From contig CAMYIX010000056.1 in NCBI GenBank assembly GCA_947258615.1, positions 1-45,166 of the forward strand: 45,166 nt of DNA, written 5' to 3'. Shown one piece after another: positions 4,916 to 36,739 of this stretch (position 1 is the first letter of the stretch; each line of letters starts with the position of its first letter). The translations under genes and the position numbers were made by a program. Source of the DNA: an uncultured Ectothiorhodospiraceae bacterium (lineage in GTDB: Bacteria; Pseudomonadota; Gammaproteobacteria; UBA9214). Below the pieces are notes generated by a model that was not told where the DNA came from, ran no database searches, and worked only from the letters and a program-made list of their open reading frames with translations.

Positions 4916-4984
4916 CTTTTTCCCCCTGCTGTCCTGAATACCGATGAATTACTGAATGCCTTGCCTTCTACAGGCCGCTGACCG

Positions 4985-6139: not shown

Positions 6140-6251
6140 GGGCTAGTTCCCGATAAGAAATTGACTATATTATCTTGATTCTATTAATGAACCCTGTGTC
6201 AGGGCATGCACCTTACCGCATCTCCCTATCAGGATCAATTTGCCGGACCGG

Positions 6252-6326
6252 CTAGACCCCTGCGGGCATGCCAAGAACCAGTGCAAGACCCAGTATCGTT
6301 GTGCGTGCCAGATGAAATTTTCGCAT
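6252..6326 (-). CDS. 24-residue signal-peptide-like small protein
   Basis: A very strong Shine-Dalgarno (GGAGGTGAT) precedes an ATG at 6324-6326 with about eight bases of spacing. The reading frame encodes MRKFHLARTTILGLALVLG plus MPAGV and then TAG. The product looks like a basic n-region plus hydrophobic core, which is a bare signal peptide or a single-span microprotein. It begins 43 bases after the NtrC-type regulator gene on the same strand and precedes the Reg_prop lipoprotein. It could be a genuine small membrane protein, a leader peptide, or the remnant of an exported protein truncated by the TAG. I see no obvious continuation in the other frames before 6140. Confidence 0.5.
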   Translation of the reverse strand: MRKFHLARTTILGLALVLGMPAGV

Positions 6327-6369
6327 ATCCATCACCTCCGTTTTTTTTGCTGCATTAAGCACTTGCTGT

Positions 6370-7761: not shown

Positions 7762-7763
7762 AA

Positions 7764-10043: not shown

Positions 10044-10096
10044 GAAGCTGTTTTTGGTTGCAACTCAGTACCATGAGCGTACCAAGTTACCCAGCA

Positions 10097-11569: not shown

Positions 11570-11615
11570 AGCGGTTACGGCCTCACTGGCCGTGCTTGTT
11601 GACTGGCTATATCGC

Positions 11616-11631
11616 TGCAAGATTCACACCA
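11616..11631 (-). promoter_or_regulatory. sigma54-like promoter for the kinase/NtrC operon
   Basis: Read on the minus strand, the sequence is TGGTGTGAATCTTGCA. It has GG at -24 and GC at -12 separated by exactly ten bases, with the typical TTGCA at the -12 element. Transcription would begin near 11604, about 35 bases before the ATG at 11569. The -24 half (TGGTGTG) departs from the consensus TGGCACG. A matching activator-type palindrome lies upstream at 11842-11857. Confidence 0.6.
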
Positions 11632-16690: not shown

Positions 16691-17772
16691 CAGGCACCTC
16701 CCAGGTATTGCAGGATGACCACCCGGCCGTTGAACATGTCCGCCACGTAGACCCGGTTGTGACGGTCGGTCCAGATCCCGGCCGGCAGGTAGAACTGGCC
16801 CGGCCGGTGGCCTGTCCCGCCAATGGGCAACAGATAGCGTCCCTGCTGATCAAAAATGAGCACGTAATCGTAGTAGGACTCAACCACGTAGATATTGCCC
16901 TCGTCATCGACCGCCACGCCCTTGGGCCGGGTGAGGTTGCCCACATAGAGCCCGCGCTGGCCGAACATCTCGAGCATGGCGCCATCCCGATCGAAGATCT
17001 GGATACGGGAGTTCAGGGTGTCGGTGACATAGAGACGGTCATGCGCGAAGCTGATGTAGGTCGGTGCATTGAGATCCCCCGGGCCGTCTCCGCGCGATCC
17101 GATGGTGTCCAGCAGCTGACCTTCGGCGTCGAAGACCTTGATGTCGTTGGCGCGGGTATCGGCGACGTAGATGGTACCGGTGGCGGGGTCCCGCGCGATC
17201 CCGGTGGGACGCACCAGGATCCCGTCACCGAAACTGCCCAGCGGCCGGCCATCCGGTCCCAGGCGCAGCACGGCGGCGAGTTCGGCATCGGCGACCAGTA
17301 CCTCGCCATTTGCATCGAGGGTGATCCCGATGGGCGCGATGAATCGCACACCCGGGCGGGCGTTCTCCCAGATCAGAAGTTCGCCGGCGACCTTGTCGAA
17401 CACGAACACCGCCTGCCGGCTCACGTCGGTGACATAGACCCTGCCCTGCTCGTCCACGGTCCCGCCCTGGGGTCGCTGCAAAACCCGTGGTTGTTTTTGT
17501 TCCAGACCCAGGCCCGCCACCCAGGCCAACACCTTGACCAGTCCGCTGCGTTTGGATTGCTCACGGGTGAAGTTCTCCTCGCCGGTGAGTTCGCCCGCAA
17601 ACAGGTAGCGCGGAACCGCCTGCTCCTTGCTGGGCCAGGATGGAGTATCCCGCTGCTCGAGGACCCCCTCAAGGTCCATGTCGAAGGTCTTTTTAGGTGT
17701 CTCGGCACAGGCGGTGAGCAGCAGCACCAACCAGAATCCTGTACCCCAGTGCAGTGTAGTATGGATACGCAT
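16690..17772 (-). CDS. NHL-repeat lipoprotein
   Basis: The 360-residue protein starts MRIHTTLHWG, has a hydrophobic signal and a lipobox LLLTAC (about residues 16-21), and so is probably a lipid-anchored envelope protein. From about residue 95 it consists of NHL-type propeller blades: GRVYVTDVSRQAVFVFD, GEVLVADAELAAVLRL, GTIYVADTRANDIKVFD, RLYVTDTLNSRIQIFD, GNIYVVESYYDYVLIFD and NRVYVADMFNGRVVIL. It is paralogous to the NHL lipoprotein at 28175. NHL proteins recur beside filament-forming cytochromes of the OmcS/OmcE type, where their role is unresolved. Its stop overlaps the start of the 11-heme gene, which suggests coordinated production. I take the ATG at 17770-17772 as the start, because the longer upstream frame lacks signal features. 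Confidence 0.82.
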   Translation of the reverse strand: MRIHTTLHWGTGFWLVLLLTACAETPKKTFDMDLEGVLEQRDTPSWPSKEQAVPRYLFAGELTGEENFTREQSKRSGLVKVLAWVAGLGLEQKQPRVLQRPQGGTVDEQGRVYVTDVSRQAVFVFDKVAGELLIWENARPGVRFIAPIGITLDANGEVLVADAELAAVLRLGPDGRPLGSFGDGILVRPTGIARDPATGTIYVADTRANDIKVFDAEGQLLDTIGSRGDGPGDLNAPTYISFAHDRLYVTDTLNSRIQIFDRDGAMLEMFGQRGLYVGNLTRPKGVAVDDEGNIYVVESYYDYVLIFDQQGRYLLPIGGTGHRPGQFYLPAGIWTDRHNRVYVADMFNGRVVILQYLGGA

Positions 17773-17786
17773 ACCCAGTTGCCCGG

Positions 17787-18215
17787 CTACCAGGCCCCCG
17801 GCCCGAGCGTCTCGTGACCGCCGACAATGCGGCTCTCCAGCCCGCGGCGCCCTGAATGGCATAGATCGCAATTCTCCACCGACCAGGCCACCTCGCCGTC
17901 GTGGCACATACCGCAGAACTTACCTTCGGTGATCTGCTCCATGGTCATGTCATTTGCACCGGCGCGCATCTCGAACCCGAGTTCATGATGACAGACCTTG
18001 CAGCGGAACCGGATGCGGTGAAACCAGTGCGGAAAGATAACCGGCCGCATGCCCTCGCGTTCCGAACGCTTATTGAGGATGACGTCGGCGTATTCAGCCT
18101 GCACGACAGGTGCCTCGACAAACAACAAGGCAACTATAACTGTCAACACAGCTGCCTGAATTGTCTGATGTATGGTTGCAATCATCCCGAGCAGTATTTT
18201 CATTGTAATCTTCAC
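17787..18215 (-). CDS. triheme c7-type cytochrome A2
   Basis: The 142-residue exported protein has a signal segment ending VVQAEYAD and three heme motifs: CKVCH, CGMCH and CDLCH. The pattern MRPVIFPHWFHRxRFRCKVCH, a GKFCGMCH and then SVENCDLCH is that of the c(7)-type triheme family. The His residues before the first motif are candidate distal ligands. It is about 60 percent identical by eye to the protein at 21212-21655 (A1). The GTG at 18213-18215 is supported by GAGG six bases upstream. It is probably a periplasmic electron shuttle to an outer-membrane conduit. Confidence 0.87.
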   Translation of the reverse strand: MKITMKILLGMIATIHQTIQAAVLTVIVALLFVEAPVVQAEYADVILNKRSEREGMRPVIFPHWFHRIRFRCKVCHHELGFEMRAGANDMTMEQITEGKFCGMCHDGEVAWSVENCDLCHSGRRGLESRIVGGHETLGPGAW

Positions 18216-18223: not shown

Positions 18224-18769
18224 TCAGCGTGGCACTTTATTCCGGGGCACGCTGTGGCAACGTTTGCATTCGGTCAGCGGGAACGAAACGGCACCATGAC
18301 ACTGGCCGCAATACTCGCCCTGCAGGACCGCGAACATGTTGACCGGCGTCTCGCCGGCCTTTTGCTTGAAGATCTTGTCATGACAGTTGCTGCAATCCAG
18401 CCACTCAGTGTGCTGCCTGTGGGGAAATAGGACCAACGGCATCTCACTGGTCTCTGGCATGATGACATCCAGGTCAAGCACCTCGATCTTGGTCTCCGGC
18501 ATAATATTGGTGCGCGGATTGATATAACCTTCCTGCAGCGCTCGTACCCAATGCACCATGTTGCCTGCTGTATCATCCGGTAGTACGGACAGGGCCTCGC
18601 GGGGTTGCTGCAGGACCCGCACTGCCGGGCTTTCCGGGTCGTGGATGCCGTCCTTCTCCAGTGGGGTCCAGCTACCGGCAGCGAAAACCGATGTCGCCCA
18701 CAGCATCAAGATACCCAAGATCGAATACTTCAGACCAAGCCGGCGGCCGGTGTGCTTGTGCAGAACCAT
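18224..18769 (-). CDS. triheme c-type cytochrome B2
   Basis: The 181-residue protein has a signal peptide (ending ATSVFAAG), an about 80-residue heme-free region that begins KDGIHDPE, and a C-terminal triheme domain with CSNCH, CGQCH and CKRCH. The segment LFPHRQHTEWLDCSNCH places conserved histidines ahead of the first heme, as in c7-type domains. It is paralogous to B1 at 20620-21204 (shared KDGIHDP, LQQPREA, INPR, HTEWLDCSNCH). An AGGAG eight bases before the ATG at 18767-18769 supports this start. It lies between A2 and C2 on the same strand. The KDGIHDP domain is of unknown function. Confidence 0.87.
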   Translation of the reverse strand: MVLHKHTGRRLGLKYSILGILMLWATSVFAAGSWTPLEKDGIHDPESPAVRVLQQPREALSVLPDDTAGNMVHWVRALQEGYINPRTNIMPETKIEVLDLDVIMPETSEMPLVLFPHRQHTEWLDCSNCHDKIFKQKAGETPVNMFAVLQGEYCGQCHGAVSFPLTECKRCHSVPRNKVPR

Positions 18770-18797: not shown

Positions 18798-19688
18798 CTA
18801 GCCCGGTATGTAAACACCGGCCGCGCGGATGGCGCGCACCAGGTTCTGGGTGGATTCCTCGAGCGTCTCGATCGCTGCTTCGTAATCACCACTGGCGGCC
18901 TGGTGGTCAGCATCCTGGCGCAGCTCACTGGCCTGGTCGATGAAGCGCTGGACCATGCGGTCGGTATTGCCCTTGTCACGCAACAGGACGATGACCAGCA
19001 TCTTGTGGGTCTCGTTGCGATCCACCTCGTAGTCGTACTCCTCCTGCTTGCTCTCGAAATGCAGCGAGCGCACCAGGGTGTCGCCGCCGCGCTGTTCCTC
19101 GATCGAGGTCTTGGCCATTTCGTAGGCGCCATCCAGCACCCGCCGGCCTTCCTGGATACGGCCCTCATCGGCCAGCAGGTCGGCCTCGTTCACCAGTCTG
19201 CGGGTGAGCGCGATCTGCTGTGCCGTACTATCCCGGGTCCCCTTTTCATCGCCGATACGCTCCAGGGCCTTCAACAGCACATCCACGCTTTCCGCGCGGG
19301 CATCGAAGTCGCGGCGTTCCTTCTGCTCCGCCAGGCCGCCGGTCCCCGCGAGTTTCACGGCATCGAACAACACCACCGTGGTCTCGTGGAGCAGCTCGGA
19401 GGCGCGCGCGGCATCACCGCCGTCATATGCAGAGCGCGCCTGGCGATAGAGATCCCGTGCCTCCTCGAGGCGCGACTGGGCCGCCGGGTTGCCGCTGGCC
19501 TCGACCCGCTGCGCGCCGGATGACGATGTCACCAGCCGCGCCACATTCTCGAGGCGGTTTGCCAGTGTCTGCGGGTCCTGGTCCCGGGATGCCGCGGAAG
19601 GCTCGGCCGCCGGAACCGCTGCCGGCAGCAGCGCGAACACCAGGGCCAGGATGGTCAGGGACAGGGTAAAAGGGTGTCTTGTTGTCAC
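18798..19688 (-). CDS. exported all-helical protein C2 (unknown family)
   Basis: The 296-residue protein has a clear signal peptide (LALVFALLPAAVPAAEP, cleavage near 28) and a long helical, charged remainder without cysteines. The C-terminal third contains SxxxExKQEEYDYEVDRNETHKML and a closing GDYEAAIETLEESTQNLVRAIRAAGVYIPG. These align with the FRYEQERYRSHRML and GHYRAAIKTQEAATRHLVNALRRAGLFLP parts of C1 at 19709. I do not recognise a named domain. The helical pairs resemble TPR-like or coiled scaffolds. Its position between triheme cytochrome genes suggests an assembly or scaffolding protein for the periplasmic carriers. Confidence 0.75.
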   Translation of the reverse strand: MTTRHPFTLSLTILALVFALLPAAVPAAEPSAASRDQDPQTLANRLENVARLVTSSSGAQRVEASGNPAAQSRLEEARDLYRQARSAYDGGDAARASELLHETTVVLFDAVKLAGTGGLAEQKERRDFDARAESVDVLLKALERIGDEKGTRDSTAQQIALTRRLVNEADLLADEGRIQEGRRVLDGAYEMAKTSIEEQRGGDTLVRSLHFESKQEEYDYEVDRNETHKMLVIVLLRDKGNTDRMVQRFIDQASELRQDADHQAASGDYEAAIETLEESTQNLVRAIRAAGVYIPG

Positions 19689-19708: not shown

Positions 19709-20617
19709 CTACGGTAAAAACAGACCTGCACGTCGCAGGGCATTGACCAGGTGCCGGGTTGCGGCCTCCTGCGTCTTGATGGCGGCACGGTAGTGGCCGG
19801 CAGCTGATTGTGTGCCGGCAGTTTGCAGAAGGTCACGTGAACGCCCCAACTCCGCCTCCATGTAGTTGCGCGCCTCGGGGCCCGGGTTGCGTTCCAGCAT
19901 GGCCATATCGTAGAGCATGCGATGGCTGCGGTAGCGCTCCTGCTCATAGCGGAATTCATCCTGGGGGGTGTCGAATACCAGCCGGTGCTCGAGGGTCTCG
20001 TTCGCGCGCACCCGGGCCAGGGCGACGGAGACCTGGTCGTAGACCAGCTGCAGGATATCATTGGCCTCCCGGTAGCGACCCTCGGAGACCTCGCGCTCGG
20101 CCCGGGTAACGGCCTGGTCGACGGCGTTGATATCCAGTTCGGACCGTGCGACGGCGCCCTTCTCCTCGACTACATCGGCAAAGGCGCTCCGGAATGCCAT
20201 GACTCCCGCCAGGCGTTCTTGATAGGCGGACCGCTGTTCGGCCGCGGACGGCGATTGCTTGCTGGCGCGCGCCAGCGCGGAGGCCTGCTCCAGCGCGGTA
20301 TTCACCGACACGGTGGCGGCGGCCATTTCATTGTTCCCGGAGGCAATACGTGCCTGCTCGAGTAAACCGCGTATCTGCATAATCGTATCTCCGCTTGCGG
20401 GCCGGGTAGCGGCTGCGCTTTTGTCCGCGCGCGCCAAGAGCATTTCCACCAGCCGTATCTTCTGTCCGAGCAACTGCTGCTCCTGTTGCCCCTTTGATAC
20501 CTGCGCGCCTTCCCGGTCCCCAGCGTCCGCTGCGCCGGTCAACAACGGCGCATCCTGCGCCATGGCCGTCTCAAGCAGGACCAGCAGGACGACAACACAG
20601 GAGGGCCCGGGGCGCAT
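19709..20617 (-). CDS. exported all-helical protein C1 (paralogue of C2)
   Basis: The 302-residue protein begins at the ATG 20615-20617, two bases after the stop of B1 (TGACGATG). It has a signal segment VVVLLVLLETAMAQ followed by an extended helical region. Repeated pairs of the form LLEQARIASGNNEMAAATVSVNTALEQA and EREVSEGRYREANDILQLVYDQV suggest TPR-like antiparallel helices. It has no cysteine in the mature part. The C-terminal 100 residues match C2. Function is unknown. The conserved C-terminal end (RRAGLFLP / RAAGVYIPG) suggests a specific docking or export feature. Confidence 0.75.
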   Translation of the reverse strand: MRPGPSCVVVLLVLLETAMAQDAPLLTGAADAGDREGAQVSKGQQEQQLLGQKIRLVEMLLARADKSAAATRPASGDTIMQIRGLLEQARIASGNNEMAAATVSVNTALEQASALARASKQSPSAAEQRSAYQERLAGVMAFRSAFADVVEEKGAVARSELDINAVDQAVTRAEREVSEGRYREANDILQLVYDQVSVALARVRANETLEHRLVFDTPQDEFRYEQERYRSHRMLYDMAMLERNPGPEARNYMEAELGRSRDLLQTAGTQSAAGHYRAAIKTQEAATRHLVNALRRAGLFLP

Positions 20618-20619: not shown

Positions 20620-21204
20620 TCACTTGGCGGCGGTATCCGTCTTCGTCTTGGCGTGGCATTTGCGGCAGTCGGACACCGGGAAGGCGACCTTGCCATGACA
20701 TACCCCGCACTTCTCGCCCAGCAGAATCGAGGCCATGCTGATTTGATTGGCTCCCTTCTGGGGAATGAAAATCGCGGGATGGCAGTTGGAACAGTCGAGC
20801 CACTCGGTGTGCTGCTTGTGCGGGTAGACCACATCCGGCATCGAACCCTTGACCTCGCGCACGATATTGAGGTCCATGATGATGGGTTCCTTGGCCGGGT
20901 CGAGGCGGTCATAGCGCGGATTGATCTTGTTCTCCTCGAGCGCCTTGACCCAGTCGATGCGGTTGCCCGAGTTGGCCTTGGGCATGGGTTCGAAGGCCTC
21001 CCGCGGCGGTTGCAGTATCCGGGTGCCGCTGTTGTCGGGATCGTGGATACCGTCCTTCATCGGCGGCGGGTTGCGCTCTTCCGGTGGCTTCATCAGGCGG
21101 TTGAAGGTATTGGCATTTTGCGCCGTTGCGACACCGCTGGCCAAATGCAAAACGATTGGCACAGTCAGTGCGATTATCGAAAATAACAGTCGTGATGATT
21201 TCAT
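20620..21204 (-). CDS. triheme c-type cytochrome B1
   Basis: The 194-residue exported cytochrome has a signal ending near GVATAQN, a heme-free front domain (MKDGIHDPDNSG ... LQPPREAF ... INPRYD), and a triheme C-terminus with CSNCH, CGVCH and CRKCH. The histidines in VVYPHKQHTEWLDC are probable axial ligands. It is paralogous to B2. The ATG at 21202-21204 follows A1 by seven bases. Translation continues directly into C1. It is probably periplasmic and, with A1, carries electrons from the inner membrane to the outer-membrane complex. Confidence 0.87.
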   Translation of the reverse strand: MKSSRLLFSIIALTVPIVLHLASGVATAQNANTFNRLMKPPEERNPPPMKDGIHDPDNSGTRILQPPREAFEPMPKANSGNRIDWVKALEENKINPRYDRLDPAKEPIIMDLNIVREVKGSMPDVVYPHKQHTEWLDCSNCHPAIFIPQKGANQISMASILLGEKCGVCHGKVAFPVSDCRKCHAKTKTDTAAK

Positions 21205-21211: not shown

Positions 21212-21655
21212 TCACTTGTTGTTGTTACCGCCGGCACCACCTGCGCCGGCCACCGGGGCGACCAGCTGCTGCAGGGTGCTCTCGTGCACCTGGGTGGGCG
21301 TGCCGGGCTTGGCGGAATGGCACAAGTCACAGTTTTCCACCGACCAGGCGATGTCGCCGTTGTGGCAGGCACCGCAATACTCCCCATCGATGATCTTCAG
21401 CATGTTGATCTCGTTGCCACCGGCCTTGAACTTGAAGCCGAGGTCGGCGTGGCAGACCTTGCAGCGGAAACGTACCCGGTGGAACCAGTGCGGGAAGATG
21501 ACCGGGCGCATGCCGGCCTCGTCGGAGTAATTGTTCATCACGACATCACCGTATTCGGCCTTGGCCGGTTCGATGCCGGTAGCCATAAGCAGCAAGCCTG
21601 CGAGCAAACCCCACAATCCACCGATCGCGAGTTTCTTGATTGTTGTATCTGCCAT
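21212..21655 (-). CDS. triheme c7-type cytochrome A1
   Basis: The 147-residue exported protein has a signal ending GIEPAKAEYGD and three heme motifs (CKVCH, CGACH, CDLCH) in the c7-type spacing, with FPHWFHRVRFRC supplying likely ligand histidines. The C-terminal tail is low-complexity (AGAGGAGGNNNK) and differs from A2. It is the first cytochrome after the porin, separated by a 207-base gap (21656-21862) in which I see no clear promoter or terminator. A GAGG about ten bases upstream supports the ATG. Confidence 0.88.
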   Translation of the reverse strand: MADTTIKKLAIGGLWGLLAGLLLMATGIEPAKAEYGDVVMNNYSDEAGMRPVIFPHWFHRVRFRCKVCHADLGFKFKAGGNEINMLKIIDGEYCGACHNGDIAWSVENCDLCHSAKPGTPTQVHESTLQQLVAPVAGAGGAGGNNNK

Positions 21656-21862: not shown

Positions 21863-23632
21863 TCAAAAGATACCCCCGATATTCCTCACTACGGAAAACA
21901 GGACAAAATAATTCCGGTTACCACTGCCGCGTTCGGTGGCCACCGCCCTGAGCCGGAAACCGAGGCGGCCAAGGTTGTAGGTCAGCTCATTTTCCCACGC
22001 CTTTTCAGACAACAAGTCGCGGCCCGACACATCGCCCCGCCCCTCGCGCAGGGGATTCAGGCTGCTGGAATTCAGACTCAACTCGGACAGGAACTGCAGG
22101 CGCCGGACACCGAACAGGCGGCTGTTGCGATAGCTCAGATCCGCGCTGGAAAAATCGAAGGAACCGTCTTCGCGGTGTATGGATTGCAGTGTCAGGCCCG
22201 CACTCATGTTGATATGCCGCCCGATCCGGCGATTATGCAGCGCGCTCAGGTTGATACTCTGCAAGCTGCCCGTGTCGTCCGATCCCCCCAAGCTCCGGCT
22301 ATCGCTCGCGGTAACAACCAGTTGCGAGCTGCTCTGACCCAGGGCGCGCACCAGGCCAAGCGAGCCAAACGTGGTCAAACCCTGCGTGCTGTCCCCCGGG
22401 TCAGAATAAGTGGCCGACACGCTCTGGCTGAGGGCGAGATTCAGCACCGTCGGGCTGGGGCCAAAGGGCATGGACCGGTTCAGGCCGTGACTGAGTGTGA
22501 GACCCGCCGTGCGCGTGTCATCCCCTTCCGAGGAAAAAGCGTTGGTCGCGCTGGCGGCCGTAGACCAGCTGTAGCTGAAGCCGCGCACATCGAAAGGAGC
22601 CGGCGAGTAGCTGAGCGTCCCGGACTGGGAATGCGTGTCACTGTCGCTCTCGCCACGCCTGACGAAGGCGGATCTTAACCGACCCGATGCCCGCAGCTCC
22701 GGGGTCAGCTCGTAGTAGGCGGTCATGGACAGGTCGGTATCTTGGACCTCTTCCGTCACAGTCCCTGTCTCGGTCCGGCCACTGGAATAGCGTGCGTCCC
22801 CTGTCACACGCAGTGGACGCTGCCGTGAACGCCAGGCGGCGGCGCTGGACAGATCGAGCGCCTGGCGCTGGGTGCCGGCCAGTGCATTGCTGAGGTCGAA
22901 ATCGACAAAACTGGCATAATTCTGCAGGGAGAAATGGGAAGTGGGCCGGTAGCTGTGCCTGGCGTTCAGCAACAGGGTCTGCAACTCGGTATCGATCTCG
23001 CCTTCCCCAAGCCGGCGGTCATCGACCGACGCATTGAATGCGTAGCTATGCTTGCTGACCTGGTGAGAGGATTCCAGCTGGAGGCGATCACCCTCGTTGA
23101 TACCGCTCAATCGTTCGGTATCCTGGCTATCGTGCTCGTATCGGGCGAGATACCGGGAGTCGCCGGTGGTGGGCCTGTATTGCTGCTGCACACGGACAAG
23201 GGTGCTGCGCACGTCACCGCTGTCCCGGGTGATCCCGAAGGGATCGTCGACATCGGCGCGGGTGTCCGAGACATTTCCATAGACTTCGAACGGAAAGCGA
23301 CTGGTGGGAAACACCCGCAGCCGGGCATTAGCGGCCAGCAATTCGCTGGTGGCATCGGTCTCGCCCTCGGTCTGCGCCTGCGAAACGGTGAAACCTCCAT
23401 CGGTCGTCGCGAACCAGGGCTGCCAGATGTAGGTGTACAGGTTGAGGTTGGCGTCGTAGCGCTGCGATACGACGTCGTCCCCTTGCCCTGAGCGGCTCGC
23501 CTGGCTGGCCGTCGCTTGCAGGTAGCCGGAGTAGCGCACCGGCGGGAACTCCGCCCGGGCCCTACCCGGTAAGGCCAGCATGCTGGCCGCAAGCAGCAGC
23601 ATGACGACGCGGGGTGCCCATGGCCGGATCAT
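21863..23632 (-). CDS. outer-membrane beta-barrel protein (putative porin of a porin-cytochrome conduit)
   Basis: The 589-residue protein has a signal peptide (VVMLLLAASMLALPGRARA) followed by alternating amphipathic strands rich in Tyr, Ser, Thr and Gln. Typical turns include SGYLQATASQASRSGQGDD and HSYRPTSHFSLQNYASF, and the chain ends in phenylalanine (RNIGGIF), as expected for a Bam-inserted barrel. I count roughly 24 or more candidate strands, but cannot fix the number. It has no CxxCH. By context (a foldase upstream, triheme cytochromes downstream) it resembles the barrel of porin-cytochrome conduits or a dedicated export pore for the extracellular cytochrome. I do not recognise a specific MtrB/PioB signature, so that assignment is contextual. 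Confidence 0.72.
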   Translation of the reverse strand: MIRPWAPRVVMLLLAASMLALPGRARAEFPPVRYSGYLQATASQASRSGQGDDVVSQRYDANLNLYTYIWQPWFATTDGGFTVSQAQTEGETDATSELLAANARLRVFPTSRFPFEVYGNVSDTRADVDDPFGITRDSGDVRSTLVRVQQQYRPTTGDSRYLARYEHDSQDTERLSGINEGDRLQLESSHQVSKHSYAFNASVDDRRLGEGEIDTELQTLLLNARHSYRPTSHFSLQNYASFVDFDLSNALAGTQRQALDLSSAAAWRSRQRPLRVTGDARYSSGRTETGTVTEEVQDTDLSMTAYYELTPELRASGRLRSAFVRRGESDSDTHSQSGTLSYSPAPFDVRGFSYSWSTAASATNAFSSEGDDTRTAGLTLSHGLNRSMPFGPSPTVLNLALSQSVSATYSDPGDSTQGLTTFGSLGLVRALGQSSSQLVVTASDSRSLGGSDDTGSLQSINLSALHNRRIGRHINMSAGLTLQSIHREDGSFDFSSADLSYRNSRLFGVRRLQFLSELSLNSSSLNPLREGRGDVSGRDLLSEKAWENELTYNLGRLGFRLRAVATERGSGNRNYFVLFSVVRNIGGIF

Positions 23633-23682
23633 GGTGTCGCTGCACACGGATCAGGCACCATGGGGTCATGCTCCGCGCCCCG

Positions 23683-24738
23683 CTAGTTGGCGGGACTGGA
23701 GTCACTGTCTATCGGACCGCTCTGTTGATCCCTCGATGGAGCCGGCAGGGGTAGATAATGGTCTTCCCTGACCTCGATCGGTGTCGTGGCGCGCAGTTGT
23801 TCGTACAGATTCTGCCAGGCCTGGTCGCGCTGCTCCCGCAACCAGAGCTGGCCCACCCTTTCCTGTACCTCATCGAAGGTGTTCAGCCGCGCCTGCCGGC
23901 GCTCCTCGAGCCGGAAGATCGCGATCCCTTCCAGCAGCCGAAGCGGCGGGGTGATCTCCCCTGGCTGCAGGGCGGCCAGGGCCTCCTCGGCGACGCTGGC
24001 CAGCATGCCCTGGTGCAGGTAACCCATGTCCCCCCCCTGCTCGGCCGTCCGGTCACCGGAATGCCGGCGGGCCAGCTCGACGAAATCGGCGCCCTCGCGG
24101 AGCTGGCCAAACAGGTTTTCCGCCTCGCCCTGGGCCAGGTCCCAGACCTGGGTCGGGGACGAGGGATCGACCTTGAGCAGCAGAATGGAGGCCCGGTACT
24201 GCTCCGGTTCAGTAAACAGATCAGGATGCGCCCGGTAATAGTCCTGCGTCTGTTGCCGGTTGGGCTCGGGCACGCTGTCGCGGACCTGTTGTTCCAGGAT
24301 CTGCAGCTGGCTCTGTTTCTCCACCTCGAGGCGCAGCTCGGGGAGCAACTCCTCGCGCCGTGCAACCCAGTCGGGGTTGTCGGCCTTGCGCCGGTCGAAG
24401 GCCGTCAGCCGCTCTTCCACCCAGGCACCATCGGCTTCCAGTTTCCTGCGCGCCGCCTCCTGCAGCAGCAGGGTACGTCGGACAATGTCCTCGCCGATCT
24501 CGCGCTGATAGGAGGCCAGCGTCCCTTCCGGAACCTTGCCGTGATAGAAGCGCGTCCGCATCCCAGCCTGCAGGGCCGCCTGGTAGGCCTCCAGGGTAAT
24601 GGCCTGTTCGCCCACCCGGGCGAAGACGGAGGCCTCGTCGGCTGACATGGCCGGCTCGGCGGCCGACAGGCCCGTCGCCAGCAACAGCAGGGGTATGCAA
24701 ACCAGGTGCCGGATCATGGCGAAAGTTTGCATGGTCAT
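23683..24738 (-). CDS. periplasmic parvulin-type peptidyl-prolyl isomerase (SurA/PrsA-like)
   Basis: The 351-residue protein has a signal peptide (CIPLLLLATGLSAAEP), an N-terminal helical chaperone region (about 35-165), and one parvulin (rotamase) domain at about 175-285. The domain is recognised by EQYRASILLLKV, FVELARRHSGDRTAEQGGDMGYLHQGML and LQPGEITPPLRLLEGIAIFRL. SD-like AAGGAAG precedes the ATG at 24736-24738. It lies 50 bases upstream of the beta-barrel gene, so it may act as a client-specific foldase for the barrel or the cytochromes. PPIases also accompany OmcS/OmcE-type loci in Geobacter. Confidence 0.87.
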   Translation of the reverse strand: MTMQTFAMIRHLVCIPLLLLATGLSAAEPAMSADEASVFARVGEQAITLEAYQAALQAGMRTRFYHGKVPEGTLASYQREIGEDIVRRTLLLQEAARRKLEADGAWVEERLTAFDRRKADNPDWVARREELLPELRLEVEKQSQLQILEQQVRDSVPEPNRQQTQDYYRAHPDLFTEPEQYRASILLLKVDPSSPTQVWDLAQGEAENLFGQLREGADFVELARRHSGDRTAEQGGDMGYLHQGMLASVAEEALAALQPGEITPPLRLLEGIAIFRLEERRQARLNTFDEVQERVGQLWLREQRDQAWQNLYEQLRATTPIEVREDHYLPLPAPSRDQQSGPIDSDSSPAN

Positions 24739-24800
24739 TTCTTCCTTATCGTTGATACCTGAATGGCTCGCCATGGCCTCAAAAATCTAACATGCAGTAA

Positions 24801-24834
24801 ATAAAAAGCCAAGCGAGGTAACACCTCGCTTGGC
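24801..24834 (-). terminator. rho-independent terminator after the OmcE-like gene
   Basis: A perfect 12-bp stem (GCCAAGCGAGGT / ACCTCGCTTGGC) with a three-base loop is followed on the minus strand by TTTTTAT. It lies about 55 bases after the OmcE-like stop codon and 63 bases before the PPIase start. It would end the short omcE-like transcript and separate it from the downstream foldase/porin/cytochrome run. Confidence 0.9.
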
Positions 24835-24889: not shown

Positions 24890-25714
24890 CTACTTGGTGT
24901 GGCAAGTCAGGCAGACGTTGCTCTGCTCGTTGCTGATGCGCATGAAGGACACGGTGCCGCCGCCCTCGTGCGGATCATGGCAGGAGCCGCATTCCACCGA
25001 CGGGCCTGTGAGCGCACCACCCGAGAAGCTGCGCGTGTAGAGGATCATGTCCACCTTTTCGCGGTTAGTGCCAGCACCCGCTGTGGAATTGACCCAGTAG
25101 GCGGCGGCGCCGTTGATGACATCGAAGTTCGCGGTCGCGAAATCGGGGTCAACCGCGGTCGCCGCGCAGGTTCCCGCTCCGGTCGGCGCGGTGGCCGTAT
25201 TACAGGCGCCTGCGGCATACTCGATACCAATGGGATGATCGTTGGTCAGGTCACCCGTGCCACCGCCGATCGCCGCAATACCACCCATGAGTCCAGTGGA
25301 TCCAGTGTTGAGGTCCGTGCCACCAACCCCGGCGAGACCGGAACCGGGTGCGTTGATGACAACGTCCATGGCCTGGCTGCCGTCATGGCAGGAGAGGCAG
25401 GCCAGCGAGACGGAGCCCACCGCCAGCACCTCACCGTCGATGGTGCTGCTGTTCCCGTTGTCATAGGTGTCGAATCCGGCGGGATCCGCCAGGGTCTTGT
25501 TCCACAGCGGCGCCGCCGCGGCGGTGCTGGCCGCGTGTGGGGTATGACAGTACACGCAGATCTCGTTGGTGGCAGTCGGATTGCTGACCTGCGAGTTACC
25601 AGTAGGAGTGAGGTCGTGCTCGGAGCCGGTGATTGCCGCGGTGGCGCTGGTGCTGAAGGCCAATGCCCCTGCCAGCCCGGCGATGATTGTGAAGCGTGTT
25701 AATAGCCTGTTCAT
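24890..25714 (-). CDS. OmcE-like tetraheme c-type cytochrome (putative nanowire subunit)
   Basis: The 274-residue protein has a signal peptide ending STSATAA (about 27). Four heme motifs follow: CVYCH (53-57), CLSCH (106-110), CGSCH (242-246) and CLTCH (268-272). Invariant surroundings are EHDL at 32-35, CHTPHA...APLWNK, CLSCHDG, DLTNDHPIG, and CHDPHEG...FMR. This order and spacing match the short tetraheme OmcE family, which in Geobacter polymerises into extracellular filaments. There an N-terminal histidine ligates a heme of the neighbouring subunit; His33 is the candidate here. Two extra cysteines (171, 183) sit in the loop before heme 3. The ATG at 25712-25714 has a strong GGGAGGG. It has its own sigma54 promoter and terminator, consistent with high regulated expression. 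Confidence 0.85.
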   Translation of the reverse strand: MNRLLTRFTIIAGLAGALAFSTSATAAITGSEHDLTPTGNSQVSNPTATNEICVYCHTPHAASTAAAAPLWNKTLADPAGFDTYDNGNSSTIDGEVLAVGSVSLACLSCHDGSQAMDVVINAPGSGLAGVGGTDLNTGSTGLMGGIAAIGGGTGDLTNDHPIGIEYAAGACNTATAPTGAGTCAATAVDPDFATANFDVINGAAAYWVNSTAGAGTNREKVDMILYTRSFSGGALTGPSVECGSCHDPHEGGGTVSFMRISNEQSNVCLTCHTK

Positions 25715-25772: not shown

Positions 25773-25789
25773 TGCAATCCGTGTGCCAA
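25773..25789 (-). promoter_or_regulatory. sigma54 promoter of the OmcE-like gene
   Basis: Read on the minus strand, the sequence is TTGGCACACGGATTGCA. It has the consensus -24 TGGCAC and -12 TTGCA, with exactly ten bases between GG and GC. Initiation is expected near 25762, about 48 bases before the ATG. It is the best sigma54 match I found in the window. Confidence 0.85.
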
Positions 25790-25924: not shown

Positions 25925-26962
25925 CTACGGTTGCGGGTATTCTTGGAGGGGATGGAAGGCGCGGTGGATATAAGCCGCGACGTCCTGGATCTCGGGCTCA
26001 CTGAGCACGCTCTTCCAGGCGGGCATGGAGGTCCCGGGGAGCCCATCGCGGATGACACCGACCAGGTGCGGGTGCGACATCCCGGCCATCGCCTCCGGGT
26101 TGGTGAGGTCGCGGGGGCGGGGTTCCATGAAACTGCCGATCCAGTTGCGCCCCGTGCCGTCGCCACCGTGGCAGAAAGCACAGTTGTCCAGGAACAGCTG
26201 GCCGCCCCGGGTCTCCTGTTGCGTAAGCACGTCGATCACCGGTAGCGCGTCGTGCAGGGCGTAGCTGGAGGCTGCCGAGACGCTGTCCGGCGGGTCCTTG
26301 TGCGAGTAGCCACCACGCGGGTAAGACAGGGCCTCGGCATCCCACAGTAATTCGCTGTCGCGCACGCGCCCCCGGTCATGACACGACAGGCAAGATGACA
26401 AAAACAACCGCTTCCCGGCCTGCAGGTTGGCCGTCAACTGCTCCCAGGGCGTATCCAGGGCGATCTCGCCGGCCGCGAAGGGCGCGGCCGGCGAGTCCGC
26501 CGGGTCCCCTTCCCAGCCGTTCTCGCGCGAGTGATAGCGGATATTACCGCCCTCACCGGCCATGAACGCCCGACGGATGAAGGCCACCACGGCCTCGATC
26601 TCGGCCGCGGTCAGCCGGTCCGCAAAGCCCTTCATGGCGGTGCCCGGCCGCCCGCTGCGGACCGCACGCTGCATGGCTTCTGCATCGAGGGCATCCAGTG
26701 CAGTGGCAGTGAAGTCCCGGGGCGAAGGGCTCAGGAAACTGCTGGCCAGTGTCTTTGCATCGCCGGCATAGCCGTGGCAGTAGTAGCAGTGGGCGTTGTA
26801 GAGCTGCCGGCCGGTGGTCAGTGTCACCGCTATATCATCGGACGCTGCTGGATTAGCCGGCGCCGGGTTGGCAGGCACGTTCCCCGCCATGGAGACTAAA
26901 ACGGGCAACAGCACGGCACCGGCCAGGGCCATGCCGAGCACCCGGTGAAGCAATGAGTTCAT
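25925..26962 (-). CDS. triheme cytochrome c (three class-I-like domains)
   Basis: The 345-residue protein has a signal peptide (VLGMALAGAVLLPVLVSMAG), a Pro/Ala-rich stretch, and three CxxCH motifs: CYYCH, CLSCH and CAFCH. Domains 1 and 3 are class I monoheme folds, with PRDFTATALDAL and SGRPGTAMKGF or DGLPGTSMPAW supplying Met ligands near their ends and helices AEIEAVVAFIRRAF and PEIQDVAAYIHRAF. The middle domain is diverged. It starts seven bases after the stop of the related triheme gene at 26970, so the two form an operon. Class I domains suggest a higher-potential periplasmic carrier or terminal donor. It ends about 210 bases before the OmcE-like ATG, with the sigma54 promoter in between. 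Confidence 0.85.
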   Translation of the reverse strand: MNSLLHRVLGMALAGAVLLPVLVSMAGNVPANPAPANPAASDDIAVTLTTGRQLYNAHCYYCHGYAGDAKTLASSFLSPSPRDFTATALDALDAEAMQRAVRSGRPGTAMKGFADRLTAAEIEAVVAFIRRAFMAGEGGNIRYHSRENGWEGDPADSPAAPFAAGEIALDTPWEQLTANLQAGKRLFLSSCLSCHDRGRVRDSELLWDAEALSYPRGGYSHKDPPDSVSAASSYALHDALPVIDVLTQQETRGGQLFLDNCAFCHGGDGTGRNWIGSFMEPRPRDLTNPEAMAGMSHPHLVGVIRDGLPGTSMPAWKSVLSEPEIQDVAAYIHRAFHPLQEYPQP

Positions 26963-26969: not shown

Positions 26970-28004
26970 TCAGGAACCCGCCTTCTGCAAACGGATGAAG
27001 GTCTGGAACACGTACTCGGCGATGTCTGTCATGGTCTGCGCATCCAGCACCGTCTCCCAGGCGGGCATTTCCGCGCCCCGGCGACCCTTGGCAATGGCCT
27101 CGTAGAGTACCGGGCGGTTCAGGGTGGCGCGTGAGGCCTCCAGGGTAAAGTCACGCGGCTTGGGCAGAATGAAATAGGCCCGCGGACCCTGGCCGTCACC
27201 CCGCTCGCCGTGGCAGGCCACGCAATTCTGCAGGTAGAAGGCCTGGCCGCGCACGGGATCGCCGACCAGGCCGGAGGTAAATGGCAACTCCATGTCGATT
27301 CTAACAGGCGCCGCCTCGACCATGGACGAATCAGCGCCCTGCCCCATAAAGGCCGTGCGGATGTAATCCACCACCGCCTCGATCTGTGCAGGGGCAAGCT
27401 GGTCACGGAAACCGGCCATGGCAGTATCCGGCCGGCCAAAGGTGACCGATCGGACCATGCGCTCGCGGGTGAGTTCACTGGCGGCAAGCTCTGCCGTAAA
27501 GTCCCGCGGTGCCGGTTGCATGTTGTTCTCGGCCCAGACCGCGGTCCGCCCCTGGTCTCCGTGACACACCGAGCAGTTCTCTGCATACAACCGGGCCCCT
27601 TCACTGCCCTCTTCGCCGGCTACCGGCAGCATGAACCGCTCCCGGATGAAGTCGGTCACCGCCTCGATCTGCGTATCGCTGAGCTGGGTCTTCCAGGCGG
27701 TCATCGCGGTGCCCGGGCGACCTTCACGGATCGAGACCAGCATGCGTTCCCGGGTCAGTTCGAGCGCGGCCCCGGGCCGGGTGAAATCGGCGGGTGGCGG
27801 CTGCATGCTGCCCATGGCGCGGCTCCTGCCGTCGCCCCGGTCCCCGTGACAGACGGAGCAGTAGTCATGATAGATCTCGTCCAGCGGGACGGTTTCAGCG
27901 GCTTCGGCCTGCAGCAGGCCTGCCCAGGACATGCCATACAGCAACCCGATCAGCCACTGTATGGATTGGGCCGGGAATTTATTCATATGTTGCGTCATCA
28001 TCAT
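26970..28004 (-). CDS. triheme cytochrome c (three tandem class-I-like domains)
   Basis: The exported protein of about 344 residues has a signal around QWLIGLLYGMSWAGLLQAEAAE and three repeated domains. Each has a CxxCH (CSVCHGDRGDGR, CSVCHGDQGRT, CVACHGERGDGQ), then a PxPxDFT segment, a GRPGTAM-type Met-ligand loop and a final helix of the type QIEAVTDFIRERF. Domains 1 and 2 are the most similar, suggesting internal duplication. The start is uncertain: ATGATGATG at 27996-28004 and another ATG at 27986 both lack a good Shine-Dalgarno. It is divergent from the NHL-fccAB genes. It is probably a periplasmic carrier related to the next gene. Confidence 0.83.
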   Translation of the reverse strand: MMMTQHMNKFPAQSIQWLIGLLYGMSWAGLLQAEAAETVPLDEIYHDYCSVCHGDRGDGRSRAMGSMQPPPADFTRPGAALELTRERMLVSIREGRPGTAMTAWKTQLSDTQIEAVTDFIRERFMLPVAGEEGSEGARLYAENCSVCHGDQGRTAVWAENNMQPAPRDFTAELAASELTRERMVRSVTFGRPDTAMAGFRDQLAPAQIEAVVDYIRTAFMGQGADSSMVEAAPVRIDMELPFTSGLVGDPVRGQAFYLQNCVACHGERGDGQGPRAYFILPKPRDFTLEASRATLNRPVLYEAIAKGRRGAEMPAWETVLDAQTMTDIAEYVFQTFIRLQKAGS

Positions 28005-28174: not shown

Positions 28175-29314
28175 ATGACCATATCAAACACTCCCAGCCC
28201 GAGACCGGTGAGACGGCTGTCAGGATACCTGCTGCTCCTGCCGATACTTGGCCTTGCCGCCTGTGCCACACCCCCTGAACGGCCTGAACTGGCGCCGCTG
28301 ACCTTCCCTCCACCCCCGGAAACCGCGCGGTTCGTGTTCGAGCGGACACTCACGGGCTCGGCCGACATCGAGGAAGATGATAAAACCAGCCGGCTGCGCA
28401 GGCTGGCCACCGGCGCCGGGCGGACCAGTGTCGTCTTCAGCAAGCCCTTCGACGTGGTGGCCTGCAAGGGACGAATCTTTGTGACGGATACCGTCAAGCG
28501 CATGGTCATGGTATTCGATGCGCCCGGCCGGCGCTTCAATCAGATCGGAACCACCGAGCCTGGCGAACTAACAAAGCCCCTTGGATTGAATGTCGATGCC
28601 GAGTGCAATCTCTATGTCGTCGACAGTACCCTGAAGGTAGTCAAGGTCTACCGCGCGGACGGTACGTTCCTCAAGGCCTTCGGGGGGCGCGACTGGTTTG
28701 ACAGGCCCTCGCACATCGCCGTGACGGCCGACGGCAGCCGGGCCTTCGTGGTCGATACCGGCAGCGTGGACAACCAGAACCACCGCATCCGGGTTTTCGA
28801 TACCGGCAGCGGCGAGCACCTCTACGACATCGGCACCCGTGGATCGGAAGCCGGCCAGTTTAACCTGCCGCGCGATATCGAACTGGATGCCGATGGCCGT
28901 ATCCACGTCGTCGATGGCGCCAATTTCCGGGTACAGATCCTGGAACAGGACGGCACGCCGGTCAGCAGCTTTGGCGGCATCGGGCGCAAGTCGGGGCTGT
29001 TCTCGCGGCCCAAGGGGATCGGCATCGATCCCGCCGGCAACATCTATGTCAGCGACGCCGCCTTTGGCAACTACCAGATCTTCAATCCCGACGGCCAGTT
29101 GCTGCTGTTTGTCGGCAGCCGCGGCACCAAACCGGGGCGCGCGAAGTACATGCTCCCTTCGGGCCTGCATGTCGATGAAGACGGCCGCATCTATATGGTG
29201 GACCAGTTCTTCCGCAAGGTGGACATCTACCGGCCGGCCGGGCTGGCACAGGAGGAGGGCTACCTCGGGGTCTGGTACCGTGCACCCGATGCCAAAGAGG
29301 CCGCCAATAAGTAA
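28175..29314 (+). CDS. NHL-repeat lipoprotein upstream of fccAB
   Basis: The 379-residue protein has a hydrophobic signal and lipobox LGLAAC (about residues 26-31). After a Pro-rich linker it forms an NHL propeller with blades GRIFVTDTVKRMVMVFD, CNLYVVDSTLKVVKVY, RAFVVDTGS...HRIRVFD, GRIHVVDGANFRVQIL, GNIYVSDAAFGNYQIF and GRIYMVDQFFRKVDIY. It is paralogous to the lipoprotein at 16690-17772. Its stop overlaps the fccA start (TAATG). I infer an envelope-anchored propeller that supports cytochrome assembly or docking rather than catalysis. The ligand is unknown. Confidence 0.83.
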   Translation: MTISNTPSPRPVRRLSGYLLLLPILGLAACATPPERPELAPLTFPPPPETARFVFERTLTGSADIEEDDKTSRLRRLATGAGRTSVVFSKPFDVVACKGRIFVTDTVKRMVMVFDAPGRRFNQIGTTEPGELTKPLGLNVDAECNLYVVDSTLKVVKVYRADGTFLKAFGGRDWFDRPSHIAVTADGSRAFVVDTGSVDNQNHRIRVFDTGSGEHLYDIGTRGSEAGQFNLPRDIELDADGRIHVVDGANFRVQILEQDGTPVSSFGGIGRKSGLFSRPKGIGIDPAGNIYVSDAAFGNYQIFNPDGQLLLFVGSRGTKPGRAKYMLPSGLHVDEDGRIYMVDQFFRKVDIYRPAGLAQEEGYLGVWYRAPDAKEAANK

Positions 29315-29748
29315 TGGGTGCAGATACCGGCCAGACCCCCGGCGCGCCCGGGCCACGGTGGCAAAGACAGTCCCGGTGGTGTTGCCTGCTTGCAGTACTC
29401 GGCAGCCCGGCTGCTGTCGGGGCTGAAACCGGCGAGGCAAGCACCCGTTTCAACCTGGCCACCCATGGTATCGAGGAAACGCTATCAACGGAGGACAAGG
29501 TGGCCAATGTTCGGCTGCTGACCGCCTCCTGCGCGGCCTGTCACGGCACCAATGGCTACAGCGTGGGGATCACACCGGTACTGGCGGGACTCGGGCGCGA
29601 TTATTTCATCCAGCAGATGGTCGATTTTCGTTCCGGGGCGCGGCCGGGCACCGTCATGAACCACAATGCCTCCGCCTACACACCGGCCGAAATCGCGGCC
29701 ATGGCGGACTTCTTCGCGGCACTGCCGCGCACGGGCTGCGACCGGTGA
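29314..29748 (+). CDS. fccA: monoheme cytochrome subunit of flavocytochrome c sulfide dehydrogenase
   Basis: The 144-residue exported protein has one heme motif (CAACHGTNG) and a downstream Met in GTVMNHNA. It has the FccA-like segments LLTASCAACHG, PVLAGLGRDYFIQQM and FRSGARPGTVM. FccA takes electrons from the FAD subunit that oxidises sulfide in the periplasm. The classical Allochromatium subunit is diheme and larger; this is the shorter monoheme type. The ATG overlaps the NHL stop, and fccB follows 30 bases later, supporting a translationally linked sulfide-oxidation unit. Confidence 0.85.
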   Translation: MGADTGQTPGAPGPRWQRQSRWCCLLAVLGSPAAVGAETGEASTRFNLATHGIEETLSTEDKVANVRLLTASCAACHGTNGYSVGITPVLAGLGRDYFIQQMVDFRSGARPGTVMNHNASAYTPAEIAAMADFFAALPRTGCDR

Positions 29749-29778: not shown

Positions 29779-31038
29779 ATGCCGATCAAGCGACGCCGTT
29801 TCCTGCAAGCCCTGTCCGCCGGCGCGGGCCTGGCCACGCTCGGGCTGCCCGCTGTTCGTGCCGCCAAGGGGACGCGTATTGTCGTCATCGGCGGCGGTTT
29901 CGGCGGCGCCACGGCGGCCAAGTACCTGCGCCTGTGGGGGCCGGATCTCGAGGTCATCCTGATCGAGCGCAACCGGGATTTCATCTCCTGCCCGCAGAGC
30001 AACCTGGTGCTCGGCGGCAGCCGCACCCTCAAGGACCTGACCCTGGGCTACGAGACGCTGACCGCCCGACACGGGGTACAGCTGGTTCATGATGAAGTCA
30101 ATGGCATCGATCCCCAGCGCCAGACCCTCGCCCTGTCCGAAAAAGAAATCAGCTATGACCGCCTGGTCATCGCGCCCGGGATCGATTTCGTCTACGACGG
30201 CATCGCGGGACTGGAAGACCCGGCCGTTCGTGAAGCCATCCCGCACGCCTGGAAGGCCGGACCCCAGACGATCGCCCTGCGCCAGCAGCTCGAGGCCATG
30301 CCGAACGGCGGGCGCTTCCTGATGAGCATCCCCCGGATGCCCTATCGCTGCCCGCCCGGCCCCTATGAACGGGCCTGCCAGGTGGCGTTCTTCCTGCGCT
30401 ACAGTAAACCGAAGGCCCGGATCACGGTCCTGGATGCAAACCCCGGCATCGTCGCCAAGCAGGACCAGTTCCTCGAGGCCTGGGAGGAAAAATACCCTGG
30501 GATCATCGAATACCATCCGAATCAGGAAGTGACCGCCGTGGATTCGGCAACCCGCACGGTCACCACGGCGGCGGGCAAGTTCCGGGCCGACGTCATCAAC
30601 ATCATACCGCCACAGCGGGCGGCCGCAATCGCTCACAGCGCGGGCGTCGTCAACGTCGATGCACGCTGGTGCGATGTGGACTTCCTCAGTTACGAATCAA
30701 CCACCCGCAAGAACATCCACGTGATCGGCGATGCCATCGCCTCCACCCTACCGAAATCAGGGCACATGGCCAATGCCGAGGCCAAGGTGTGTGCCGCGGC
30801 GATTGTGGCAATGGCCACCGACCAGCGGCTGGTCGGTGGACCGGTGTTCGCCAATACCTGTTACAGCCATGTGAACGCCAGCGAGGCCATCCACATCTCC
30901 AACGTCTACCGTTATGACCCCGTCAGCCGCAGCATGCAGTCGGTACACGGCAACATGGTATCGGAACAAGCGACCCGGCTGGATGCCTATTACGCCCGCG
31001 CCTGGGCGATGAATATCTGGAGCGATGTCCTGGACTAG
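29779..31038 (+). CDS. fccB: flavocytochrome c sulfide dehydrogenase, FAD subunit
   Basis: The 419-residue protein has a Tat signal (KRRRFLQALSAGAG) and an N-terminal FAD-binding Rossmann motif VVIGGGFGGATAAKYL. ISCPQSN, with Cys at the position of the covalent FAD linkage in FccB, follows. Two further cysteines in the family's disulfide positions are in YRCPPGPYERAC and NTCYSHV. The C-terminal region matches the FccB/SoxF family. It oxidises sulfide to sulfur or polysulfide and passes electrons to FccA in the periplasm. It is the strongest metabolic marker of a sulfur oxidiser in this window. Confidence 0.93.
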   Translation: MPIKRRRFLQALSAGAGLATLGLPAVRAAKGTRIVVIGGGFGGATAAKYLRLWGPDLEVILIERNRDFISCPQSNLVLGGSRTLKDLTLGYETLTARHGVQLVHDEVNGIDPQRQTLALSEKEISYDRLVIAPGIDFVYDGIAGLEDPAVREAIPHAWKAGPQTIALRQQLEAMPNGGRFLMSIPRMPYRCPPGPYERACQVAFFLRYSKPKARITVLDANPGIVAKQDQFLEAWEEKYPGIIEYHPNQEVTAVDSATRTVTTAAGKFRADVINIIPPQRAAAIAHSAGVVNVDARWCDVDFLSYESTTRKNIHVIGDAIASTLPKSGHMANAEAKVCAAAIVAMATDQRLVGGPVFANTCYSHVNASEAIHISNVYRYDPVSRSMQSVHGNMVSEQATRLDAYYARAWAMNIWSDVLD

Positions 31039-31298: not shown

Positions 31299-32279
31299 CT
31301 AGATATCGTGGCAGGCCATGCAGAGTGGCTCACGGGTACCAGATAGCCCGGCAGTGCGCAGGAACATCCTGTTTTCGGCGTGGGGATCATGGCAGGTCGA
31401 ACACTCGATATACGGTGCCGGCTGATTGTTTGCGCCATAGCGCGTATAGAGATGTACATCACTGCGCTGGCGACCCGGTTCACCAGTCTCCAGCCACCAT
31501 ACCTGTACCTGGTCGATTATGGCACTCTGGGTGGGTTTATATCCTGTCAGGGGGGGGTGTGCCGCTGCCGGATTCTCGCTTACATAGGGATTGACGGCTG
31601 TACCCACATCACCCGCCTGACTCTCATTCGCTGCGCCCCGGTAGGGGATGCCCACCGGGTGGTTGCCACTTTTGTCGGACTCGCAAATTCTCTTCCCGAG
31701 ACGCTTGCTGATTGGCTCGTACGTCAGTGTATCCTCCGGTGGCGTAGAGTAAATATCACCGGAGGCGACATACCCGTGGCCGGCGATGTTATGCGCCTGG
31801 GTTCCATCGTGACAGGACAGACAGGAGAGTGAAACAGATCCCGCCGAATCGATTCCAGGCTCTCTGGCATACCCGAAACTGTCATAGGTACGATATCCGG
31901 TCTTCGTGGCGGGATCGGAACCGATCCATTGCGGTACAGATTCACTATTGCCCTGGGGTGTATGGCAGAATACACACACCGCCTCACTGTCTTTGTCTGT
32001 AAACGATGCGGATTCCAGGCCTGTGAGGTTATGCAGGGTATTGACAATACCGGCCAACACCCCGGTTGCGGGGCAAAGCCATAGCGCCAGCAGGGCTGCA
32101 GCCAGTGTAAGACGCGATGTTTCTGCGGATCGCAGGCGTCTCTGCCGGTTATTTCCAGGCCGGAAGAGACTGGCGCGTGGCCGCCGCATCACGTAACGGT
32201 ATTCAGACGTGTTGATCCAACAACCCGTTTTGGCTGTTCGGCCTGAGGCCGGCCGATCTGTTGCAGTGCTTCTTTTCAT
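31299..32279 (-). CDS. second stand-alone OmcE-like tetraheme c-type cytochrome
   Basis: The 326-residue frame contains a hydrophobic export segment (LTLAAALLALWLCPATGVLAG) preceded by an unusually long basic leader. The mature part has LHNL, then CVFCHTPQG, CLSCHDGTQ, NHPVG, CSTCHDPH with MFLR, and the final CMACHDI: four hemes in the same order as the OmcE-like protein at 24890. The loop between hemes 2 and 3 differs. The start is uncertain. The ATG at 32277-32279 lacks a Shine-Dalgarno, while a perfect AAGGAGGTGA lies about 45 bases further upstream; an internal ATG 30 codons in is also possible. It is convergent with fccB and separated from it by a palindromic repeat. It may be an alternative filament subunit. 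Confidence 0.8.
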   Translation of the reverse strand: MKRSTATDRPASGRTAKTGCWINTSEYRYVMRRPRASLFRPGNNRQRRLRSAETSRLTLAAALLALWLCPATGVLAGIVNTLHNLTGLESASFTDKDSEAVCVFCHTPQGNSESVPQWIGSDPATKTGYRTYDSFGYAREPGIDSAGSVSLSCLSCHDGTQAHNIAGHGYVASGDIYSTPPEDTLTYEPISKRLGKRICESDKSGNHPVGIPYRGAANESQAGDVGTAVNPYVSENPAAAHPPLTGYKPTQSAIIDQVQVWWLETGEPGRQRSDVHLYTRYGANNQPAPYIECSTCHDPHAENRMFLRTAGLSGTREPLCMACHDI

Positions 32280-36543: not shown

Positions 36544-36739
36544 GCGTGAAAATCGTTCCGGACAGGGCCGGCACAGCATAGCCAGCGGCGCGACCTGTCA
36601 CCATCGTTGCCACCCTGCTGCACTTTGATCATACTGCGAACACCCTCACAGACGTCTCCGTATGCATGTCCCAGTCCACGCTGCCACCACCGGGGTCGGT
36701 TCACCATACGACTGCCACCCACTGCTGTCCCACTTAATT

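Follow-up and report, generated by a model that had tools for sequence, protein, structure and literature searches.

The window analyzed here comprises 45,166 nucleotides from an uncultured Ectothiorhodospiraceae bacterium (GCA_947258615.1, contig CAMYIX010000056.1), and its features are collected in Table 1. The genes found here make up a complete uet (undecaheme electron transfer) cluster, a system that has already been published. The uetABCDEFGHIJ cluster was described for Tenderiales and Gallionella (PMC10734462, PMC12575090), where it consists of an extracellular tetraheme cytochrome (UetA), an isomerase (UetB), a barrel (UetC), triheme cytochromes (UetDEG), NHL proteins (UetHI), and the undecaheme UetJ (PMC10734462; PMC12575090); the triheme, TPR, and undecaheme genes of Tenderia were also reported (PMC5371394). 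The window has the same order as Uet of Candidatus Tenderia electrophaga and Gallionella, running from the A tetraheme, the B peptidyl-prolyl isomerase, and the C barrel through the D/E/G trihemes, the F TPR protein, and the H/I NHL proteins to the J undecaheme, a match that rests on gene order and content compared with the published naming. It differs from the published system in that the triheme and TPR genes are duplicated and only one NHL gene precedes uetJ. In addition, fccAB is inserted nearby, and there is an OmcE-like paralogue that lacks one histidine, here called the donor.

Table 1. Features of the uet locus and its surroundings, with positions in the window.
Feature	Position	Strand	Basis or remark
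Two Reg_prop propeller proteins, sigma-54 response regulator, two histidine kinases	3605-11620	minus	recurrent uet neighbours
ResB and CcsA, system II cytochrome c maturation	12455-14543	minus	after uetJ
uetJ, undecaheme cytochrome	14258-16690	minus	11 CxxCH; OmcE-like domain at residues 21-224
NHL-repeat protein, uetH/I-like	16690-17772	minus	1-base overlap with uetJ start
Triheme cytochrome, uetD-like	17787-18215	minus
Triheme cytochrome, uetE/G-like	18224-18769	minus
uetF-like TPR-type protein 2	18798-19688	minus
uetF-like TPR-type protein 1	19709-20617	minus
uetE, triheme cytochrome	20620-21204	minus
uetD, triheme c7-type cytochrome	21212-21655	minus	TIGR04257 nanowire_3heme
uetC, barrel-like outer-membrane protein	21863-23647	minus	594 aa, C-terminal Phe; putative barrel
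uetB, SurA/PpiC-type peptidyl-prolyl isomerase	23683-24774	minus	present in 44/47 loci
Intrinsic terminator-like hairpin between uetA and uetB	24808-24834	minus	sequence; 12 pairs and a T run
uetA, OmcE-type secreted tetraheme cytochrome (the main finding)	24890-25714	minus	phmmer; CxxCH and His counts
Sigma-54 promoter match TGGCACACGGATTGCA, 5' of uetA	25773-25788	minus	motif match, 0 mismatches
Three-domain class I cytochrome c	25925-26962	minus	recurrent uet neighbour
Second three-domain class I cytochrome c	26970-27986	minus	recurrent uet neighbour
NHL lipoprotein	28175-29314	plus	recurrent uet neighbour
fccA and fccB	29314-29748 and 29779-31038	plus	monoheme FccA; FCSD domains in FccB
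OmcE-like paralogue, CHTPQ for CHTPH (donor-less, possible cap)	31299-32279	minus	phmmer 7TFS E 3.8e-16

The initial annotation of this DNA had surrounded the tetraheme gene with a barrel, foldases, NHL proteins, and triheme carriers. A barrel-like protein, NHL proteins, and triheme cytochromes (four, c7-type) were indeed found there; the plural 'foldases' stands only in part, with a single peptidyl-prolyl isomerase (UetB) inside the cluster and a second foldase at 43244. Two more OmcE-like proteins of the window, the 31299-32279 product and the N-terminus of UetJ, were absent from that annotation. UetC has no match in Pfam and is similar only to proteins at the same position in other loci. 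The ResB and CcsA genes also follow uetJ at two other loci (L082 and L086).

The same locus recurs in deposited genomes. A genome scan identified 47 uetA loci, mainly in Beta-, Alpha-, and Gammaproteobacteria, the last being where the initial annotation had suggested looking, and in Magnetococcales. Of the 31 loci with at least 9.5 kb of downstream sequence, every one has UetB, UetD, UetE, and a TPR protein, 28 have NHL proteins, and UetC and UetJ each occur in 26 (presence taken at blastp E 1e-5). Recurring genes upstream encode class I three-domain cytochromes, an NHL lipoprotein, two regulator propellers, histidine kinases, and a sigma-54 response regulator. The OmcE wire family occurs in some form in 45 of 369 sampled genomes of the class. 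The gammaproteobacterial origin given in the initial annotation is supported, the genome of locus L003, a named Gammaproteobacteria MAG, being counted in the same class. Carriers of uet in culture include Sedimenticola hydrogenitrophicus SN1189, Ferrimonas sediminicola, and Aromatoleum tolulyticum. In three Kiloniellaceae loci (L007, L014, L047) uetA is duplicated in tandem, and both copies keep the donor histidine. The uetA of a Caldilineales MAG, on a contig labelled Chloroflexota (L025), groups inside the gammaproteobacterial UetA clade, probably through mis-binning or recent transfer. A uet-like arrangement exists outside Proteobacteria: in Planctomycetota, mostly Phycisphaerae (L055-L064), OmcE-like tetrahemes are accompanied by NHL proteins and 11- to 13-heme cytochromes.

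UetA and the OmcE family

The uetA reading frame encodes 274 amino acids, starting with the Sec signal peptide MNRLLTRFTIIAGLAGALAFSTSATAA, and its product is predicted to be secreted to the outside of the cell. The motifs from which the initial annotation had recognized the OmcE plan in a tetraheme protein are all present (EHDL, CVYCHTPH, APLWNK, CLSCHDG, DLTNDHP, CGSCHDPH, FMR, and CLTCH), and the four CxxCH sites are CVYCH, CLSCH, CGSCH, and CLTCH. The similarity to OmcE proposed there is significant in phmmer searches of the PDB: OmcE of Geobacter sulfurreducens (7TFS) is matched at E 1.8e-21, with N- and C-terminal parts both aligning, and 9YUQ at E 1.3e-22. Domain searches in Pfam and NCBIfam returned generic doubled-CXXCH domains only. 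On these matches, with homology far above chance, UetA is a member of the OmcE family. It is a further member within a known system, which varies here in having a donor-less paralogue and a local fccAB. The OmcE wire family is thereby connected to the Uet clusters proposed for electron uptake in cathode and iron bacteria.

UetA and OmcE agree in the motifs that contain their four CxxCH sites, in four distal histidines at corresponding positions, and in the Sec signal; its precursor is about 40 residues longer, and the filament is known for OmcE whereas UetA is known here from sequence. The closest solved chain by E-value is 9YUQ, a putative multiheme cytochrome c with 16 chains and the same eight ligand positions. 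In total, the UetA precursor contains eight histidines (33, 57, 60, 110, 160, 246, 249, and 272); none is spare, and each is conserved without exception across 35 aligned relatives. Four of them lie in the CxxCH sites; the other four correspond to the non-CxxCH histidines conserved in OmcE (HDL, CHTPH, NDHP, and DPH). By this count, all four hemes of UetA are set up for bis-histidine ligation. AlphaFold models of UetA were weak, with pLDDT 48.6 from 35 sequences and 65.5 from 101 sequences, the latter still with values below 50 in parts of the region around the first two hemes. A Foldseek search of the PDB with the weak model of pLDDT 65.5 gave no match below E 0.001, a result of little weight, since cytochromes of this kind are poor in secondary structure; published Foldseek runs on such cytochromes also retrieved close homologues only (PMC9473688).

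Signals around the gene look like separate transcriptional control of uetA. Upstream sigma-54 matches of at least 9/11 were seen at 26 of 72 loci compared with 6.7% of random windows, and terminators at 18 of 47 A-B gaps but at none of the 32 B-C and 25 C-D gaps (0/57 together), counts that include related loci and are not independent. At many gammaproteobacterial loci the A-B terminator is absent and the A-B gap very short. With its own sigma-54 site and a terminator following it, uetA shows the pattern that would be expected of a subunit made in excess over uetB-J.

The donor histidine and the ends of a possible wire

Wang et al. reportedly assigned, in 2019, the inter-subunit ligand of OmcS to His16, and residue 16 of the 6EF8 sequence is the second His of CEGCHTMH. 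OmcS is hexaheme and overall sequence similarity to UetA is absent, yet the two are alike in this element, CHTMH at the heme-1 site of OmcS with His16 at the position of the inter-subunit ligand. In OmcS as in OmcE, the adjacent subunit supplies a histidine ligand to one heme (PMC9473688, PMC12954529; for OmcS also PMC6584659), and the four hemes of OmcE with their distal histidines superimpose on the first four of OmcS (PMC9473688). Together, His16 and this superposition make the second His of CHTPH the likely inter-subunit donor in OmcE and in UetA, where it is present at the OmcS His16 position and its role is assigned by analogy. Our literature search found no paper stating which histidine crosses the OmcE or OmcS interface.

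An alignment of OmcE-like domains, among them residues 21-224 of UetJ (E 8.4e-22 to 7TFS, phmmer), sets this position apart. Seven of the eight ligand columns are His in 130 of 130 rows; the remaining column, that of the second His in CHTPH, keeps it in 116 and has lost it in 14. Among the rows that keep it are OmcE, 9YUQ, every clustered UetA, and the N-terminal domain of every UetJ; those that lack it are the 31299-32279 protein and 13 counterparts, in which it is replaced by Q, P, R, S, T, A, E, M, or D (nine residues). In a tree made by a quick method without bootstrap, this site takes four changes, and no fewer than three separate losses are required by the strongly supported branches; the donor-less proteins fall into a clade of eight (including the 31299-32279 protein), a second clade of four pentaheme proteins, and two isolated cases. 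By analogy, a protein that lost this histidine alone would keep its own hemes and be unable to ligate that of a neighbour. Donor-less paralogues were found in 7 of the 28 genomes searched whole and are accessory, and most of the 14 genes adjoin class I cytochrome and NHL genes. That the 31299-32279 gene is an ordinary duplicate was considered and set aside, the loss being confined to one ligand and repeated.

Two pentaheme lineages were also noted. Four donor-less relatives (L080:4227-4973, L081:4369-5307, L123:3292-4035, and L124:3853-4698, with CHIPP, CHVPP, or CHLPD) lie between class I cytochrome and NHL genes and belong to a lineage separate from the 31299-32279 paralogue. Another family (L118:3312-4643, L119:3311-4234, L120:3375-4331, L125:3668-4660, L126:4242-5219, L129:3509-4492, and L130:12673-13590) keeps CHTPH, has an additional CxxCH ahead of the CHDPH heme, and stands at another locus, usually adjoining an NHL lipoprotein gene of its own; it is possibly another wire type.

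These findings point towards UetA as the subunit of a filament, a reading to which we assign a probability of roughly 60%. It is favoured by the homology to OmcE and 9YUQ, by eight invariant histidines with none to spare, by the conserved donor histidine, and by the separate promoter and terminator, as well as by the recurrent uetA-J order and the OmcE-like domain of UetJ. UetA would be exported via Sec and polymerize outside the cell as OmcE does, each subunit supplying its neighbour's last heme with the second His of CHTPH. The chain of hemes would extend outward from a conduit of the UetC barrel, the triheme cytochromes, and UetJ, whose OmcE-like N-terminal domain is the probable docking site. 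It is rather unlikely that UetA instead stays a monomer, one per conduit, capping UetC and UetJ as MtrC caps MtrAB, its likeness to OmcE reflecting fold and heme packing only. In the accessible part of the uet literature UetA is called simply an extracellular tetraheme cytochrome (PMC10734462), and the weak models (pLDDT 48.6 and 65.5) bring no support for a multimer. However, if the second His of CHTPH pointed outward from a monomer, one heme would be left five-coordinate, yet this histidine is invariant in all UetA examined; the terminator and promoter specific to uetA likewise point to its excess over uetB-J.

The filament reading can be extended to the ends of the wire, which the OmcZ paper touches on in setting possible tip proteins aside (PMC9473688). 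A cytochrome wire has a start at the membrane and an end, and the locus offers candidates for both. UetJ might start the wire, with UetA repeating and the donor-less 31299-32279 paralogue ending it. The OmcE-like domain of UetJ keeps the donor histidine and at its far end continues into a part with seven further hemes, so that it might nucleate the wire at the outer membrane; the paralogue could receive a ligand and could not give one. More generally, wires of the OmcE family might be equipped with specific end pieces whose genes lie next to that of the repeating subunit, UetJ nucleating the wire and donor-less paralogues terminating it. We regard both the local proposal and its generalization as speculative and, on balance, improbable. 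The pattern of at least 3 to 4 separate losses at one column, with the other seven at 100%, is consistent with such end pieces, as are the shared class I cytochrome and NHL neighbours and the retention of the donor by every UetJ N-terminal domain. The limited occurrence of the paralogue, however, means that a cap would not be universal; donor-less proteins might also be monomers or act elsewhere, and the interface histidine itself is assigned by analogy. If the proposal were true, wire polarity and length control would follow from heme-ligand exchange, and because the proposed cap is without one known ligand residue, the question is reachable by point mutation.

In the literature searched, with the primary Tenderiales paper lying outside it, there was no link between UetA and OmcE and no donor-less paralogue; the UetA-OmcE link may already be published. 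New here are the OmcE-like N-terminus of UetJ, the repeated loss of a single ligand in paralogues, and the separate promoter and terminator of uetA.

fccAB and the direction of electron flow

By their domains, fccAB are a real sulfide dehydrogenase pair: like flavocytochrome c sulfide dehydrogenase, FccB has the FCSD central and flavin-binding domains (5N1T, E 6.9e-106), and FccA of the window is a single-heme cytochrome. The initial annotation had placed a sulfide-oxidation pair beside the tetraheme gene, and the pair is genuine, but it lies about 3.6 kb away on the opposite strand with three genes between. Its position beside uet was seen only in this genome, and FccB is present in none of the 28 uet loci having 7.5 kb upstream, which led us to reject fccAB as part of a conserved uet module; the pair is a local insertion or neighbour outside conserved uet. 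In the family at large, 15 of 23 genomes carry fccB at some location. A second copy in this genome, which scores better, lies on contig 86 (G000:C86:14735-21246), about 5 kb from heme-copper oxidase subunit I.

Electron export during sulfide oxidation, as the initial annotation had envisaged, was not borne out by this distribution or by the published proposals for uet, which concern electron uptake (PMC10734462, PMC12575090). A dedicated pathway in which FccAB feeds the Uet conduit for export would draw on the probable cotranscription of fccAB with the uet-linked NHL lipoprotein gene, which fccA overlaps by 1 base and with fccB starting 30 bases after fccA. Against it stand not only the comparable loci without FccB and the published direction, but also the commonness of fccB in the family and the other copy here, close to a heme-copper oxidase, and we consider such a pathway very improbable.

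The opposite direction, which is compatible with a filament, has a chance somewhat short of even. Electrons would then pass from iron minerals, electrodes, or partner cells through UetA and UetJ to oxygen. The published setting agrees with this, being Tenderia on cathodes and iron-oxidizing Gallionella (PMC5371394, PMC10734462, PMC12575090), as do the heme-copper oxidases present in this genome. However, undecaheme cytochromes are also cited for manganese reduction, and a heme wire can conduct in either direction. The MAG, which is 65% complete, yielded no RuBisCO or dsrA, and the genome itself therefore clearly favours neither electron export nor uptake.

Further along the window, three paralogous membrane proteins with C-terminal TPR repeats are encoded at 34435-36579 (minus), 37076-38899 (plus), and 38917-40893 (plus), with TPR as their only Pfam match. 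We take them to resemble TMTC-type glycosyltransferases. OmcE wires are glycosylated, so a link between the wires and these TMTC-like proteins is conceivable.
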